IMG/VR virus record: IMGVR_UViG_3300006224_000034 | Span: 1-27,405 of that record | Source of the DNA: a virus | Direction: 5' to 3' (one strand) | DNA: 27,405 bases | Part shown: positions 6,964 to 24,277 of the stretch, piece after piece | Layout of the letters: every line of letters starts with the position of its first letter | How positions within the stretch are numbered: the stretch's first letter is position 1 | Notes under the pieces: generated by a model | The model's database searches: none | What the model was told of the DNA's origin: nothing | The model's input: only the letters and a program-made list of their open reading frames with translations | Position numbers and translations under genes: made by a program

Positions 6964-8061
6964 TTAAGGAATCTCTGCTGATGCTGTAATCCCACTACTC
7001 GTGTTATTGTACCAAACCCCTCTTCCAGCTGCCGCTGGAGCATAATACGCACATAAAGTTTGGGTATCCACTTGAGTGAGATTAATGCTGCCTGTTGTAT
7101 TTACTGTAGTAAAAGCGCCTATCACTCCCATAAATGGTATAGCACGTTTTGTCTGTTTAAAGTTAAAGCATAAAGGTATCGCTACTCCTCCTGTTGGGAC
7201 TTGTATTTCTGCATAAATTGACCCTAATGTTGTGCCTCCTATAACTTCAAAATACCTCTGACACATCTGCAACTCACGGCCATAATCCCTAAAGTCATAA
7301 TCCGTTTTTACTGCACCCTTTTCAAATTGGGCTCTTCCCATCGTCCACGTACCGGATGTTTGGGCTCCGACCGTAAAGAGAATTTCCACGCCTGTGATAG
7401 CCGCAGCAGGCACTATAAACGATGTCTGGTAATTAGTGAGACTTGCACTGACTGTGAAAGTGCCGGTGGCAATTTGGGTTTTTGTTGGCGTTCCGATTGT
7501 CCCAAATGTATCGGCGGTCGTTGTGGCATAAGAAGCTGTCCACGTTACTGTAGTGAGTAAAGAGTTGGCTAAATCAACAGACAGCGTACAAGTGCTGCCA
7601 GCCAAATCATAGACATTATTTGATTCAATTCTCTGGCCAATACCAATAGCTGTAACGGAAGCCGCACCGGTCACTTGTAGTAAATTCTGAATAGCGCCAG
7701 CACCTGCGATTTGTGCTGCTGTTACATTGGCACCAGTACAATAAACAAACCATCTATCTACACAGGGGTAGCCTGTTGATATCGTAGGTACCGTAGTAGC
7801 GGCAGTTACGGTAGCTGACGTAGCCCGTTGAGCAAAGCGCATACGGCCATTAATAAACCGGTTTTTGAAGCCGGTATAATTGGTGCTGCCTGTAATTAAT
7901 CCGGCTACTGAGAGTGAGCCGGGAAGGGCTACGGCTGGGGAAACGGATGTTAAAACAGTTCCGGTTTCTGCTGGCAATGAGAGAACATTCGACCCCGCTG
8001 CTGCTGGGGCTTGAAGTGTTATTGTGCCAGAAGTATCGCCTGCGATTATTAGACTAGACAT
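6964..8061 (-). CDS. Tail fibre protein, paralogue A
   Basis: A 365-residue fibre-type protein. The N-terminus (MSSLIIAGDTSGTITLQAPA, then NVLSLPAETGTVLTS) is a common phage fibre beginning. Next is the motif GFKNRFINGRMRFAQ, then a beta-rich body with GYPCVDRWFVYCTGANVTAA, and LEVDL-like and TVGAQTSGTWTMGR strands. RDYGRELQMCQRYF follows, a recurring end to the conserved fibre domain. The last roughly 90 residues differ completely from paralogue B, as expected for a receptor-binding tip. It starts immediately after B (TAAATG). The shared body and swapped tip point to gene duplication with tip diversification or exchange. Confidence 0.88.
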   Translation of the reverse strand: MSSLIIAGDTSGTITLQAPAAAGSNVLSLPAETGTVLTSVSPAVALPGSLSVAGLITGSTNYTGFKNRFINGRMRFAQRATSATVTAATTVPTISTGYPCVDRWFVYCTGANVTAAQIAGAGAIQNLLQVTGAASVTAIGIGQRIESNNVYDLAGSTCTLSVDLANSLLTTVTWTASYATTTADTFGTIGTPTKTQIATGTFTVSASLTNYQTSFIVPAAAITGVEILFTVGAQTSGTWTMGRAQFEKGAVKTDYDFRDYGRELQMCQRYFEVIGGTTLGSIYAEIQVPTGGVAIPLCFNFKQTKRAIPFMGVIGAFTTVNTTGSINLTQVDTQTLCAYYAPAAAGRGVWYNNTSSGITASAEIP

Positions 8062-9165
8062 TTAAGGAATCTCTGCTACTAATTGTAAATCTGCATTGGT
8101 ACCCATTGTAACAAATGCCGGTTGGCCAGCAGTATAGGGGGCTCCTGTCCCAGTAACTGTAAAAGATACGTTATGTTTAGCGTACCCGGAGATACTAATA
8201 ACAGTAATAGCAGATTGTACTGATTGAGTAGTTAATGCTCCTGCACCATTAACTATTAATACTGGCAAAGATTTAAGCTCGTTAGGTAGTTGGTATGTAC
8301 ATGTTGCAGCAGATGTAGATGCAGTTAAGCCCATCATGCAATACGCGACTCCTGATATAGTACCCCCAAATCTAAAGCAGTATCGTTCACATAGCTGCAA
8401 CTCACGGGTATAGTCCCTGATGTCATAACTTGTAGGAATAGAACCTTTTTCAAGTTGAATTCTACCTAATGTCCATGTGCCTGATGTTTGTGCCCCAACA
8501 GTAAATAAAATCTCTATGCCAGTTGTGGCAGCTGCTGGTACTGCTATGGCTACATTATAATTTGTAATTGTGGAGTTAACCGTAAAGGTGCCGGTGGCAA
8601 TTTGAGTTTTGGTCGGTGTGCCTATTGTGCCGAATGTGTCTGCTGTTGTGGTAGCGTAAGAAGCTGTCCAAGTAACAGTGGTTAGTAATGAATTAGCTAA
8701 ATCGACAGATAGATTGCAGGTACTACCGGCAAGGTCAAAAGAATTATTCTGTTCAATACGTTGACCAACACCAACAGCAGTAACTGATGCTGCTCCAGTA
8801 ATCTGTAGTTGATTCTGAATAGCACCTACACCAGCCACTTGAGCAGCTGTAACATTGGCTCCAGTGCAATAAACGAACCACCGGTCTACGCATGGATATC
8901 CGGTTGAAGCCGTAGGTACTGTTGTACCAGCGACAACTGTAGAAGAAACTCCCCACTGAGCAAATCTCATCCTGCCGTTAATAAACCGGTTTTTAAACCC
9001 AAACGTATTCGGTAAATTAACAGGGTTAGCAAACACGACATTCTGCGTGGCATCAATAGTTACCGCTGCTACACCGGCTGTCTGGATTTCTAAAATTCCC
9101 GAAGCGTCTGCTGAGGTTATTACACCCCCGCCTGCTGCCGTGGCTGCATTAATCTTTGAGGTCAT
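8062..9165 (-). CDS. Tail fibre protein, paralogue B
   Basis: A 367-residue fibre protein, paralogous to its downstream neighbour. Both share GFKNRFINGRMRFAQ, the segment from GYPCVDRWFVYCTGANVTAA through LSVDLANSLLTTVTWTASYA and GTPTKTQIATGTFTV, and LFTVGAQTSGTWTLGR. The N-terminal roughly 60 residues and the C-terminal tip (from about residue 285) are unrelated to those of A. I chose the ATG at 9165 because it overlaps the upstream stop as ATGA. An in-frame TTG four codons earlier is possible but less likely. Both paralogues end in AEIP within a shared 20-bp DNA stretch. Codon third positions differ widely between copies while the protein is conserved, so the duplication is old or was exchanged between phages. 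Confidence 0.88.
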   Translation of the reverse strand: MTSKINAATAAGGGVITSADASGILEIQTAGVAAVTIDATQNVVFANPVNLPNTFGFKNRFINGRMRFAQWGVSSTVVAGTTVPTASTGYPCVDRWFVYCTGANVTAAQVAGVGAIQNQLQITGAASVTAVGVGQRIEQNNSFDLAGSTCNLSVDLANSLLTTVTWTASYATTTADTFGTIGTPTKTQIATGTFTVNSTITNYNVAIAVPAAATTGIEILFTVGAQTSGTWTLGRIQLEKGSIPTSYDIRDYTRELQLCERYCFRFGGTISGVAYCMMGLTASTSAATCTYQLPNELKSLPVLIVNGAGALTTQSVQSAITVISISGYAKHNVSFTVTGTGAPYTAGQPAFVTMGTNADLQLVAEIP

Positions 9166-9677
9166 AAAACCACCCAACGGCTACCCGAAGGCACCGTAAC
9201 AGTAACACCACCAGCAACAGTAACCGGTCCAACACTTGAAGCGCTGTAGCCTGCTGGTATTGCGTAGGTTGTTGCGATAGTCATGTTATTAATAATTAAC
9301 CCGTTTGAGGCAAGTAATTCTGCCGCTGTTAATTGTAAGAGAATAGTGCAATTACCAACAGCATCCAGATTAACCGATTTCTCGGCTGGGTAAGTGACAA
9401 ACACATCCTTTGTACCGGCAGAGAAGTTAACCAGCGCCCCGCCATTGGATGAAGCCAACACTGTTGTTCTGGCCAATGTTGTTCCAGCCAGTGTGTAAGT
9501 ACCAATGCCCACTTCCCAGTTTGGTCCCACTTGATCGGCAATACAGTAAAGAGTTGTGTTGCCATTACCAATAACAGAGAATGCTTGGTAACCCGTTGAT
9601 GCACCCAAAAGCGTAGCCGTGCCCGTACTGACAACAGCAGTGGTTTCTTTTACGCGATCTTTGAGTACGAGGGCCAT
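9162..9677 (-). CDS. Fibre adaptor / head-binding protein
   Basis: A 171-residue protein whose first part, MALVLKDRVKETTAVVSTGT, then GYQAFSVIGNGNTTLYCIAD, WEVGIGTYTLAGTTLARTTV and GGALVNFSAGTKDVFVTYPA, is a very widespread module at the N-terminus of phage fibres or as a short separate protein. It is thought to link fibres to the virion. The C-terminus (TIATTYAIPAGYSASSVGPV then VTVPSGSRWVVL) is typical of small beta-strand virion proteins. The ATG overlaps the stop of the upstream endonuclease by one base (TAATG), and its own stop overlaps the paralogue B start (ATGA), so the endonuclease and the fibre set are tightly coupled. Confidence 0.88.
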   Translation of the reverse strand: MALVLKDRVKETTAVVSTGTATLLGASTGYQAFSVIGNGNTTLYCIADQVGPNWEVGIGTYTLAGTTLARTTVLASSNGGALVNFSAGTKDVFVTYPAEKSVNLDAVGNCTILLQLTAAELLASNGLIINNMTIATTYAIPAGYSASSVGPVTVAGGVTVTVPSGSRWVVL

Positions 9678-10411
9678 TACATTACGTTCCCATATCTATT
9701 TCGGCTAATAATCATTGAAATTAATGTTCGTGAGACTCCAAATTTATCTCCAAGGACTTGTTGAGTATCACTACTGGTTCTAATCTCCTTTACTTGCTCA
9801 TCCGTTAAACTACCAGATTTTCTCGGGGTTGGTTCAGTCCTTACATCACCCTGCAAGTCTTTAAATATCTTCCCGTGGACAATGTTCATTATGGTCTTCT
9901 TACTAACCATAAGGTGAGTGGCTATCTCTTGATAAGTATACTCTGGATAATTAGCCCTTGCATAAAGCACTTGTTCATCCGTTAACCTAGAATTAGGTCG
10001 TTTTGGTATAGGCTTCATAACAACCTCATCCAGCGACATTCCCTGTCTTAATCTATAAGTGATTGCTCCACCGGTACATCCTAAATCCCTTGCCCATTCA
10101 GCTAATGTTTGGGTTGTCCCATTAGCAGTTAAATTATGATTGTTACTTTTATTATGAGCTTGTTCTAAGCGTGTAGCCCATCGACAGTTGGAAGGTTCGT
10201 AATTTCCATTATTGTCTTCTCTCTCTAAAGTAAGCCCATCTTTATAAGAAGCCATATCAACTAAGAATTTTACAAATCCTTCAGCTCCACTCCATTGTTC
10301 ACAGACGTTAATTCCCCTAGCTCCATAATAAGCATAAGCTTTATTTTTAGGGTTCTCACATCTATTATGCATAGCTCGCCAAATATTAAATATTTTCTTA
10401 ACTTGTTTCAC
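9677..10411 (-). CDS. HNH-like homing endonuclease with two helix-turn-helix repeats
   Basis: A 244-residue protein of the free-standing phage endonuclease type. Residues 9-40 (FNIWRAMHNRCENPKNKAYA, YYGARGINVCEQW) and 61-90 (LTLEREDNNGNYEPSNCRWA, LEQAHNKSNN) match the degenerate HNH/AP2-like pattern with R, D, N and C-R-W-A-T landmarks. The C-terminus holds two LTDEQV helix-turn-helix units (142-184 and 202-240) of the kind used to recognise a target. It sits between a virion gene and the fibre adaptor and does not interrupt either. The start is GTG at 10411, because AGGAG lies 8 bases upstream and no ATG fits. That ribosome-binding site is inside a hairpin, suggesting restricted translation. 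Confidence 0.85.
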   Translation of the reverse strand: MKQVKKIFNIWRAMHNRCENPKNKAYAYYGARGINVCEQWSGAEGFVKFLVDMASYKDGLTLEREDNNGNYEPSNCRWATRLEQAHNKSNNHNLTANGTTQTLAEWARDLGCTGGAITYRLRQGMSLDEVVMKPIPKRPNSRLTDEQVLYARANYPEYTYQEIATHLMVSKKTIMNIVHGKIFKDLQGDVRTEPTPRKSGSLTDEQVKEIRTSSDTQQVLGDKFGVSRTLISMIISRNRYGNVM

Positions 10412-10445
10412 TAGAGTATCTCCTATTATAGTAGGGGATACTCTA
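10412..10445 (-). promoter_or_regulatory. Hairpin sequestering the endonuclease ribosome-binding site
   Basis: The two arms 10412-10425 and 10432-10445 pair over 14 positions, with one C-A mismatch in the transcribed strand and a 6-base loop. The 3' arm contains the AGGAG ribosome-binding site of the endonuclease, 8 bases before its GTG, and ends just at the start codon. No U-run follows, so it is not a normal terminator. T4 homing endonuclease genes such as that of I-TevI use similar hairpins to limit translation from long transcripts, so the same is inferred here. Confidence 0.75.
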
Positions 10446-10452
10446 CTCTAAT

Positions 10453-11025
10453 CTATAAGCATGTCAAGTTATAGCTAACACTCAAAGTATCACCCGCCGT
10501 TACGATTTTATTACCCGCTGTAAAATCCCCAGCGCTGAACAGTGTACCAGTCGTGTCATCAATAGTTGCCGACCCGCCTATGTTAATAAAACATCCGGCA
10601 ATTGTTCCCGGACCGGTGGCAATAAAAATTACTGGCGATGATGTTGCTTTAACACCAGCCACTGCTGCCCCAAATACAGGGGTCTTACGAGGTGCTGTAT
10701 AGGTTGGGGGATTAGCCAAACCCACTTCAAGCCATAGAGCATGGTTCGATTGAATGTCTGTCACCACAGCGGTACCAACACCCTTTAACCCCATAACCAC
10801 AGCACCGGCTGCAGCGTTTCCAAGGAGGGTATCGAGGGCTAAATTTTTGCCAAGAGTAGTTACGAGGTTATCAATAGTATCTTCCCATTTCAAGTTACCA
10901 CAACAATCGTAGCATTTAACCGTGAAATGCCCATGGAGGCTTGATTCCTCTTTTATAGCCCCGCCATAAACTGCTACAGCATCGCAGGAATCCGTTAATT
11001 TTGTAATATCATTGTTAGAGCTCAT
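10453..11025 (-). CDS. Virion structural protein, 190 aa
   Basis: A 190-residue protein of a type I recognise from podovirus-like virion clusters. The diagnostic part is GHFTVKCYDCCGNLKWEDTI, then DNLVTTLGKNLALDTLLGNA. After it come beta-rich strands with LWLEVGLANPPTYTAPRKTP and an ending VTAGDTLSVSYNLTC. The precise role is unknown; a tail or capsid-surface part is possible. The ATG overlaps the upstream stop as ATGA, so it is coupled to the 131-residue gene. The endonuclease gene starts 41 bases downstream after the hairpin, suggesting that the endonuclease entered an originally tight junction between this gene and the fibre adaptor. Confidence 0.82.
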   Translation of the reverse strand: MSSNNDITKLTDSCDAVAVYGGAIKEESSLHGHFTVKCYDCCGNLKWEDTIDNLVTTLGKNLALDTLLGNAAAGAVVMGLKGVGTAVVTDIQSNHALWLEVGLANPPTYTAPRKTPVFGAAVAGVKATSSPVIFIATGPGTIAGCFINIGGSATIDDTTGTLFSAGDFTAGNKIVTAGDTLSVSYNLTCL

Positions 11026-17587: not shown

Positions 17588-18334
17588 ATGAAACTATTAC
17601 GACCCGCTCTGTTAATCGGTTTACTACTTGCCAGTAGTGCCCAAGCCGCGCCTATCTCCTTCACCAATATTTTTAATGGCTCATTGTCGTCGTGGCAAAC
17701 GGTAGGCACCGTTGATGATAGTATTGCTGATGCTCCGAATGGCCCTGATACACAATTCACTTTATTGAATCTAACCGGTCTTGCCGCTACTGATGCCCAG
17801 TGGATTAATGTAACCATTCAGGAAGCTCATTCTGGCTTATCAGATGTTTTGTATAACGTGGTGTTTACCCCTAACGTAACCAGTGCGGCAAGCCCATTTT
17901 TTGCTACTAGCGGCTACACAAATGGCTTAAGCTCTATTGGCTATCAAGTGACCGCACTAAAGAATGAGTTTCTTGCCAGTGTCCGTTTAGATGTCAATGC
18001 AGCTGGGGCAACCGCTACTGAAAGTGATGTTACTACTCTATCTGATGTGTCGCTGGCTAACCCTGCTTTTCTGACATTAACCAGCTTGGGTGGTCAGCCT
18101 GACCCAATATCTCCCCCCGGCTCTCACATTAACTTCTCACCTCGCAAAACCGTTTTCGTAAATAATTCCTTTGATGCGAATGGCGGTCTGATCAATTCTG
18201 TAAGCAATCAGTTCGATGTTCATACTGTTCCTGAGCCAGCAATTCCCTTATCTTTGGGTCTTGGTTTAATTGGCTTGGGTTTTATGAAAAATAAGAGTAA
18301 GCTATCTGCTAACACTCAGGTGTCTCTCGCGTAA
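17588..18334 (+). CDS. Secreted PEP-CTERM sorting-signal protein (phage moron)
   Basis: A 248-residue plus-strand gene with GAGG 7 bases before its ATG. The N-terminus MKLLRPALLIGLLLASSAQA is a classic Sec signal peptide, cut near residue 20. The C-terminus has VPEP (214-217), then a hydrophobic span AIPLSLGLGLIGLGFM (218-233) and a basic KNKSK, the tripartite PEP-CTERM signal recognised by exosortase. An extra tail of about ten residues follows. The mature body, with many Asn, Thr and Ser, has no recognisable enzyme motif. In bacteria PEP-CTERM proteins are processed and exported with exopolysaccharide, as in floc-forming and biofilm species. No exosortase is in the window, so a host enzyme would be needed. 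Its own promoter, leader and terminator mark it as a moron. Confidence 0.85.
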   Translation: MKLLRPALLIGLLLASSAQAAPISFTNIFNGSLSSWQTVGTVDDSIADAPNGPDTQFTLLNLTGLAATDAQWINVTIQEAHSGLSDVLYNVVFTPNVTSAASPFFATSGYTNGLSSIGYQVTALKNEFLASVRLDVNAAGATATESDVTTLSDVSLANPAFLTLTSLGGQPDPISPPGSHINFSPRKTVFVNNSFDANGGLINSVSNQFDVHTVPEPAIPLSLGLGLIGLGFMKNKSKLSANTQVSLA

Positions 18335-20332: not shown

Positions 20333-20365
20333 CGGCTATGTCTCCTAATTATTGAAAGAGATTTT

Positions 20366-20394
20366 ATTATATACCAAAGAGTTTATTTACGGAA
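20366..20394 (-). promoter_or_regulatory. Weak promoter candidate for the endonuclease
   Basis: TATAAT at 20371-20366 (minus strand) is a perfect -10 box about 35 bases before the endonuclease start. The -35 position (TTCCGT at 17-base spacing) is poor and falls in the most divergent repeat unit. Confidence 0.3.
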
Positions 20395-20450
20395 GGGTTT
20401 ATTTACAAAAGAGTTTATTTACAAAAGAGTTTATTTACAAAAGAGTTTAT
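20377..20450. repeat. Tandem 16-bp repeat, four copies plus a partial one
   Basis: Units of AAGAGTTTATTTACAA at 20377-20392, 20393-20408, 20409-20424 and 20425-20440, then ten bases of a fifth (20441-20450). The first ends GG in place of AA, and the second has GGG in place of GAG. The strict 16-bp spacing lies between the capsid terminator and the endonuclease start. It could be a set of protein-binding sites, an origin-like element or simple slippage. Confidence 0.85.
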
Positions 20451-23755: not shown

Positions 23756-24277
23756 TTATTTACCCCTAGGGAAATATGGTTGCATTATTCTGTCATATTT
23801 ATATCGGTTGTACCGTGCTGGGACTACTTGGATGTTGGTGTACTCACTTGTCCCACCTTTTGAGATAGGGATAATATGGTCTGTATGCCATTTAACCCCC
23901 GTCACATCATTACGTAATTGAATTAAATCTTTAGCCTCTTCAAATACAAAGCTATCAAAGTCTGACATAACCCTATAAGTTTCATACCTATCCTTCTGGT
24001 GCTTATCATGGCATAACTTACCGGCTTCTGATACTCGATATCTTACTGACGGTATTTTACCTTTATCAGACGCTCGATATTTCGCTGCCACTACTTTACC
24101 CTTACTAGATAACCCATACTTCGCAACTACTGCCTGTCTATTAGGGGCATTATGCTGATACTCCAATTTGCAAGAATTACAGCAACTCTGAAGCCCATCG
24201 TTTCGAGTTTTATTTTTGTTAAACTCAGATTCCGGTTTTTCAGTATTACATTTCCGACATACTTTCATTCTTGACAC
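23756..24277 (-). CDS. HNH homing endonuclease with zinc finger
   Basis: A 173-residue free-standing HNH enzyme. C7xxC10 and C33xxC36 form an N-terminal zinc site. Three 13-residue repeats follow (Y54, Y67 and Y80, consensus KYR.S.KGK), typical of phage HNH enzymes and probably a DNA-binding arm. The catalytic region is VKWHTDHIIPISKGG then NIQVVPARYN, with H131, D133, H134 and N148 as expected. GTG at 24277 has AGGAG 8 bases upstream; ATG at 24268 (three codons later) is an alternative. It lies between the GroES-like and scaffold genes without breaking either, and its last bases carry the scaffold ribosome-binding site. Confidence 0.88.
   Translation of the reverse strand: MSRMKVCRKCNTEKPESEFNKNKTRNDGLQSCCNSCKLEYQHNAPNRQAVVAKYGLSSKGKVVAAKYRASDKGKIPSVRYRVSEAGKLCHDKHQKDRYETYRVMSDFDSFVFEEAKDLIQLRNDVTGVKWHTDHIIPISKGGTSEYTNIQVVPARYNRYKYDRIMQPYFPRGK

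Follow-up and report, generated by a model that had tools for sequence, protein, structure and literature searches.

A conserved hairpin over the Shine-Dalgarno sequence points to an RNA gate in a mobile HNH-family endonuclease cassette

Why should a phage endonuclease gene, set among virion genes, carry its ribosome-binding site inside a stable hairpin? The question is raised by the window analyzed here, an entire virus record of 27,405 bases, in which a free-standing, putative homing endonuclease gene of the HNH family (9677..10411, minus strand; 244 amino acids, GTG start) lies between an upstream virion-region gene (10453..11025; 190 amino acids, PHROG 8123-like) and a downstream tail-region gene (9162..9677), both also on the minus strand. 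The endonuclease stop codon overlaps the ATG of the downstream gene (TAATG). We propose, with a probability of about 0.8, that the hairpin is the RNA gate of a mobile, free-standing HNH-family endonuclease cassette and that this gate is opened by an internal sigma70-like promoter.

The hairpin and its gene

Read on the minus strand from 10445 to 10412, the hairpin is UAGAGUAUCCCCUA-CUAUAA-UAGGAGAUACUCUA, followed by GUG. The arms UAGAGUAUCCCCUA and UAGGAGAUACUCUA form a 14-position stem of 13 pairs and a single C·A mismatch, closed by the loop CUAUAA, and the 3' arm contains the Shine-Dalgarno sequence (SD) AGGAG (10419..10423, minus strand; placed from sequence to within 1-2 bases) and directly adjoins the GTG start (10411-10409). 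The preliminary description had reported a stem with one mismatch that pairs AGGAG and ends at the GTG, and we recovered it at exactly this interval of the minus strand. The predicted fold bears the pairing out at -18.8 kcal/mol (z = -4.15), and none of 200 dinucleotide shuffles is equally stable. The hairpin is one of only six inverted repeats in the whole 27.4-kb window with arms of at least 12 nt separated by at most 30 nt. The predicted pairing probability of its SD hexamer is 0.83, and an Rfam search of the window gave no match.

The open reading frame at 10411-9677 belongs to an HNH endonuclease family (PHROG 3377, E = 5e-50), and its predicted strand-strand-helix order resembles a beta-beta-alpha fold. 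Pfam matched the enzyme to HTH only, and HTH-like repeats lie toward its C terminus; a structure search with the enzyme matched no HNH structure and returned just weak HTH matches, leaving the HNH fold a prediction. About 58 additional C-terminal residues (9677-9850, minus strand), which comprise a further HTH-like unit, are missing from the core relatives. The portal protein is ~35-42% identical to Pelagibacter and Planktothrix phage portals and 32% identical to Caulobacter phage portals, and the phage is therefore not T4-like. The hairpin-bearing phages look to be non-T4, podovirus-like, uncultured aquatic viruses. Elsewhere in the window, we observed an adjacent pair of paralogous tail-fibre-like genes (6964-8061 and 8062-9177, minus strand) and an open reading frame (17588-18334, plus strand) with a signal-peptide-like N terminus and a C-terminal PEP-CTERM signal above the NCBIfam cut-off (18.5 versus 16 bits), a sorting signal that is unexpected in a phage.

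Conservation across the enzyme clade

We compared the window with 22 related loci whose enzymes share 45-60% protein identity, giving 23 loci with 20 clearly distinct leaders; the loci share ancestry, and counts across the clade are not independent. An SD-burying hairpin occurs at the same place in all 22 relatives, with differing sequences, so that in each of the 23 loci the start codon is directly preceded by a stem-loop whose 3' arm holds the SD. No related locus (0 of 22) keeps the enzyme and loses the pairing, the case that the preliminary description had named as evidence against its reading. The stems are as different as GGUACACUCUUACC...GGUAGGAGGUACC in L184, UACACCUUCA...UGGAGGUGU in L199 and GUAUCCUUCUAGU...ACUAGGAGGAUAU in L202. 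Mean SD pairing probability across the 23 loci is 0.95, versus 0.53 (n=71) and 0.62 (n=112) for the two sets of flanking genes in the same phages, control genes that do not share the hairpin.

Gaps in a MAFFT alignment of the hairpins were too many for pairs to be counted, and we therefore examined covariation by exchanging 5' arms between relatives. Stems built from their own arms average -14.6 kcal/mol and those built from swapped arms -6.1 kcal/mol, and none of 10,000 permutations reaches the real pairing. Compensatory change among homologues, which the preliminary description had put forward as a check, is thus strong. We also considered whether the constraint is common to all HNH relatives and rejected this possibility: broader relatives, in which start codons are less certain, are at background SD pairing (0.59 for viral sequences, n=90; 0.53 for bacterial genomic sequences, n=71). 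The device therefore belongs to this clade.

A promoter-like site within the hairpin

The preliminary description had raised the prospect of a transcript starting inside the hairpin, and a promoter predicted to start RNA there is present in the window and keeps its position in relatives. Its -35 hexamer, TTGACA (10462..10467, minus strand), overlaps the final codons (TTG ACA) of the upstream virion gene; its -10 hexamer, TAGAGT (10440..10445, minus strand), occupies the outer part of the 5' arm of the hairpin after a 16-nt spacer; and the predicted transcription start region (10432..10435, minus strand), placed 6-8 nt past the -10, falls at the inner end of that arm. In a simple scan of both strands of the 1.7 kb around the hairpin, TTGACA-N16-TAGAGT is the single sigma70-like site, and shuffles of the same 1.7 kb lead one to expect 3.8 such sites. 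Because the lone window site is within chance, the evidential weight comes from its recurrence at the same position in relatives.

The corresponding sites are TTGACG-N17-TACACT in L184, L186 and L325, TTGACG-N17-TATCCT in L192 and L202, GTGACA-N17-TATAGT in L180 and TTGCGG-N17-TATACT in L179. The best sites of the clade fit TTGACA/G-N16-18-TANNNT, which is sigma70-like and not the T4 late TATAAATA. When scored with generic E. coli-like frequencies, which may not be those of the host, the best promoter with its -10 at -45..-21 averages 9.7 in the clade, versus 4.2 and 3.8 for the flanking genes and 4.5 for shuffles. If the -10 is picked without knowledge of the -35, scores for the -35 show a sharp maximum at a spacer of 17 nt, the canonical length. 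In most members, the -10 of the best site lies inside or beside the 5' arm of the hairpin, and the -35 often falls within the closing codons of the virion gene that precedes it. Part of the -35 conservation may be protein-driven, since the hexamer is in coding sequence, but the reading frames differ (cTT GAC G in relatives whose upstream protein ends in SLDAA, TTG ACA in the window), which argues against a purely protein-level cause.

These features suggest how the gate would work. On read-through transcripts from the upstream virion genes, the full hairpin would form and bury the SD, blocking endonuclease translation on the long RNA. The sigma70-like promoter has its -35 a short way upstream and its -10 within the 5' arm or adjacent to it; transcripts from this promoter would lack the outer 5' arm, making the full hairpin impossible and freeing the SD. 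The predicted cost of opening the region from the SD to the start codon falls from a mean of 14.1 kcal/mol in the full RNA to 4.1 kcal/mol if transcription begins at the predicted point, and from 13.0 to 2.8 kcal/mol in the window. SD pairing itself drops only from 0.83 to 0.52 in window RNA lacking the outer 5' arm, and in L198-L200 the SD is still partly paired (~0.75) in RNA with a shortened 5' arm. A TATAAT in the window loop was also considered as a promoter and rejected, as its RNA would begin within the SD or past it and would probably not be a translatable message.

The hairpin might instead be a passive damper that keeps endonuclease translation constitutively low on all transcripts, with the promoter-like sites incidental. 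Low expression by itself would protect the phage, and every member has the hairpin, even L203 and L324, for which no convincing promoter is seen; promoters are weak in L189, L191, L204, L205 and L323. We nevertheless consider this explanation unlikely: promoter scores far exceed those of flanking genes and shuffles, a blind-chosen -10 still gives the 17-nt spacing peak, and the start is placed within the hairpin in most members. Compensatory change and a positionally conserved predicted promoter together support a T4-like silencing of the endonuclease on long transcripts, as the preliminary description had interpreted the hairpin.

Much less probable is a function at the DNA level, with the palindrome serving, for instance, as an operator to which the endonuclease or some other protein binds to repress the promoter. 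There is a precedent in T4 I-TevI, which binds an operator lying over the I-TevI promoter (PMC2988022), and overlap of the -35 with the retained half of the insertion site makes autorepression conceivable. Stem sequences vary among relatives, however, while their pairing is kept, and the SD is invariably in the 3' arm. Moreover, G·U pairs (37 of 274 in the clade stems) make the sense strand fold better than the antisense strand in 19 of 20 leaders (Wilcoxon p = 2e-4), which argues for RNA over DNA. The window is the sole member in which the antisense strand folds better, because its mismatch, C·A in the sense strand, becomes G·U in the opposite one. Overall, selection most likely acts on the messenger RNA.

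The insertion site and its other occupants

Among related phages, the endonuclease is present or absent at one defined intergenic junction. Most relatives have ~20 nt between the two flanking genes and no endonuclease insert, so that the tail-region gene directly follows the virion-region gene, whose 3' end constitutes the insertion site and provides the -35. The empty junction of L097 is GCTTAATAAGGAATAACTATGG, and in L145 the endonuclease sits between the stop codon and a downstream SD identical to that of L097. All core enzyme relatives with a readable upstream gene lie directly after homologues of the window's upstream gene, even those in which the homologue is just 29-38% identical to it. 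We found no hairpin between the flanking genes at the empty sites of relatives. Its absence there, together with the lack of a T-run after the stem, a negative terminator scan, the placement of the stem relative to the endonuclease SD and a length that is short for RNase III, leaves termination or processing of the upstream gene's transcript as the least probable role, even though a stable stem stands right behind the stop codon of that gene.

The junction is a hot spot for unrelated endonucleases. GIY-YIG endonucleases occupy it in L107, L111, L121, L123 and L126 without a clear SD hairpin, and those of L107 and L121 showed no significant hairpin. In the comparison between the window and L179, the enzymes are 59% identical and the upstream genes 36%; enzyme identity exceeds that of the flank by more than 15 points in 27 of 171 pairs, and the reverse holds in 15. 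These identities indicate more transfer between phages for the endonuclease than for its flanks, as expected of a mobile gene. Separately, among loci whose upstream gene ends in SLDA, the occupied ones invariably have CTTGA, part of the -35, and the empty sites compared with them (L052, L066, L073, L075, L078, L089 and L092) often have CTCGA, a suggestive difference in small numbers.

The window encodes two further endonucleases. In the leader (20333-20380) of the second, large one (20332-18875, minus strand; PHROG 559), the SD is predicted to pair (UCUCUU/AGGAGA), as is the AUG (UUUGGUAU/AUGCCAAA). Its close relatives L259 and L261 have the sigma70-like, almost consensus TTGACA-N17-TATACT with the -10 beginning 28-31 nt before the start codon, and moderate SD pairing. 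PHROG 559 hairpins are weaker and more variable than those of the HNH clade; the promoter placement is suggestive of the same arrangement in another endonuclease family, unrelated to the first, in phages of this kind. No SD hairpin was found for the third endonuclease (23756-24277). The second endonuclease gene is separated from the capsid-gene terminator by a region (20380-20450, minus strand) with tandem AATAAACTCTTTTGTA-like units.

Known gates and implications for timing

Gating by an RBS hairpin and an internal promoter has been demonstrated for T4 I-TevI and reviewed for I-TevII, I-TevIII, segB and Aeh1 mobE, and the endonuclease-specific promoters of T4 are middle or late, never early (PMC2988022). 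The clade resembles the three I-Tev genes in that the RBS is buried on read-through RNA and RNA from the internal promoter is short of the 5' side needed for the hairpin (PMC2988022). I-TevI and I-TevII (GIY-YIG) and I-TevIII (HNH), however, are intron-encoded and use T4 late or middle promoters, whereas the window gene is free-standing, of the HNH family, set in a podovirus-like virion-gene cluster and preceded by a sigma70-like promoter. T4 segB is likewise free-standing, with promoter and RBS structure similarly arranged, but it encodes a GIY-YIG enzyme in the tRNA region of T4. A further parallel is mobE of Aeromonas phage Aeh1, a free-standing HNH homing endonuclease gene whose RBS is sequestered by a hairpin (PMC2988022). 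It differs in belonging to a T4-like phage, in being inserted inside nrdA and in having T4-type promoters. The mobE hairpin was reportedly described by Gibb and Edgell in 2007 and 2009.

The literature that we searched describes RBS-hairpin control of homing endonucleases for T4-like phages only, and the logic of I-TevI and Aeh1 mobE has apparently evolved again in non-T4, podovirus-like phages. The preliminary description had suggested convergence with an HNH-like enzyme in an unrelated phage; the non-T4 clade agrees with this, although the HNH class is not new, Aeh1 mobE being already known (PMC2988022). It had also equated the device with that of T4, which holds for the hairpin and the internal placement of the promoter but not for the promoter itself, which resembles that of the host. 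Expression timing may thus differ from that in T4. That a promoter of host type sits in an operon of virion genes suggests that the endonuclease is expressed independently of the late transcripts and perhaps before them, and its expression might be early or constitutive.

More tentatively, and with rather more doubt than confidence, we suggest that this non-T4 clade independently evolved a two-part RNA gate, with the -35 taken from the insertion-site gene and the -10 carried in its own hairpin, yielding an enzyme that is made early and silent late. If so, insertion at the right site would put together a functional promoter of host type, which would at the same time undo the gate; host RNA polymerase would make the enzyme early, and late virion transcripts would be silent, the reverse of T4 timing. 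The clade supplies ~20 natural variants for testing the gating rule, and its host-type promoter would allow one to ask what is selected, early or late timing or exclusion from translation of the operon. That a hairpin of this kind is conserved and covaries throughout an endonuclease clade of unrelated aquatic phages suggests that the need to keep such enzymes from being translated on long transcripts is general and not peculiar to T4.
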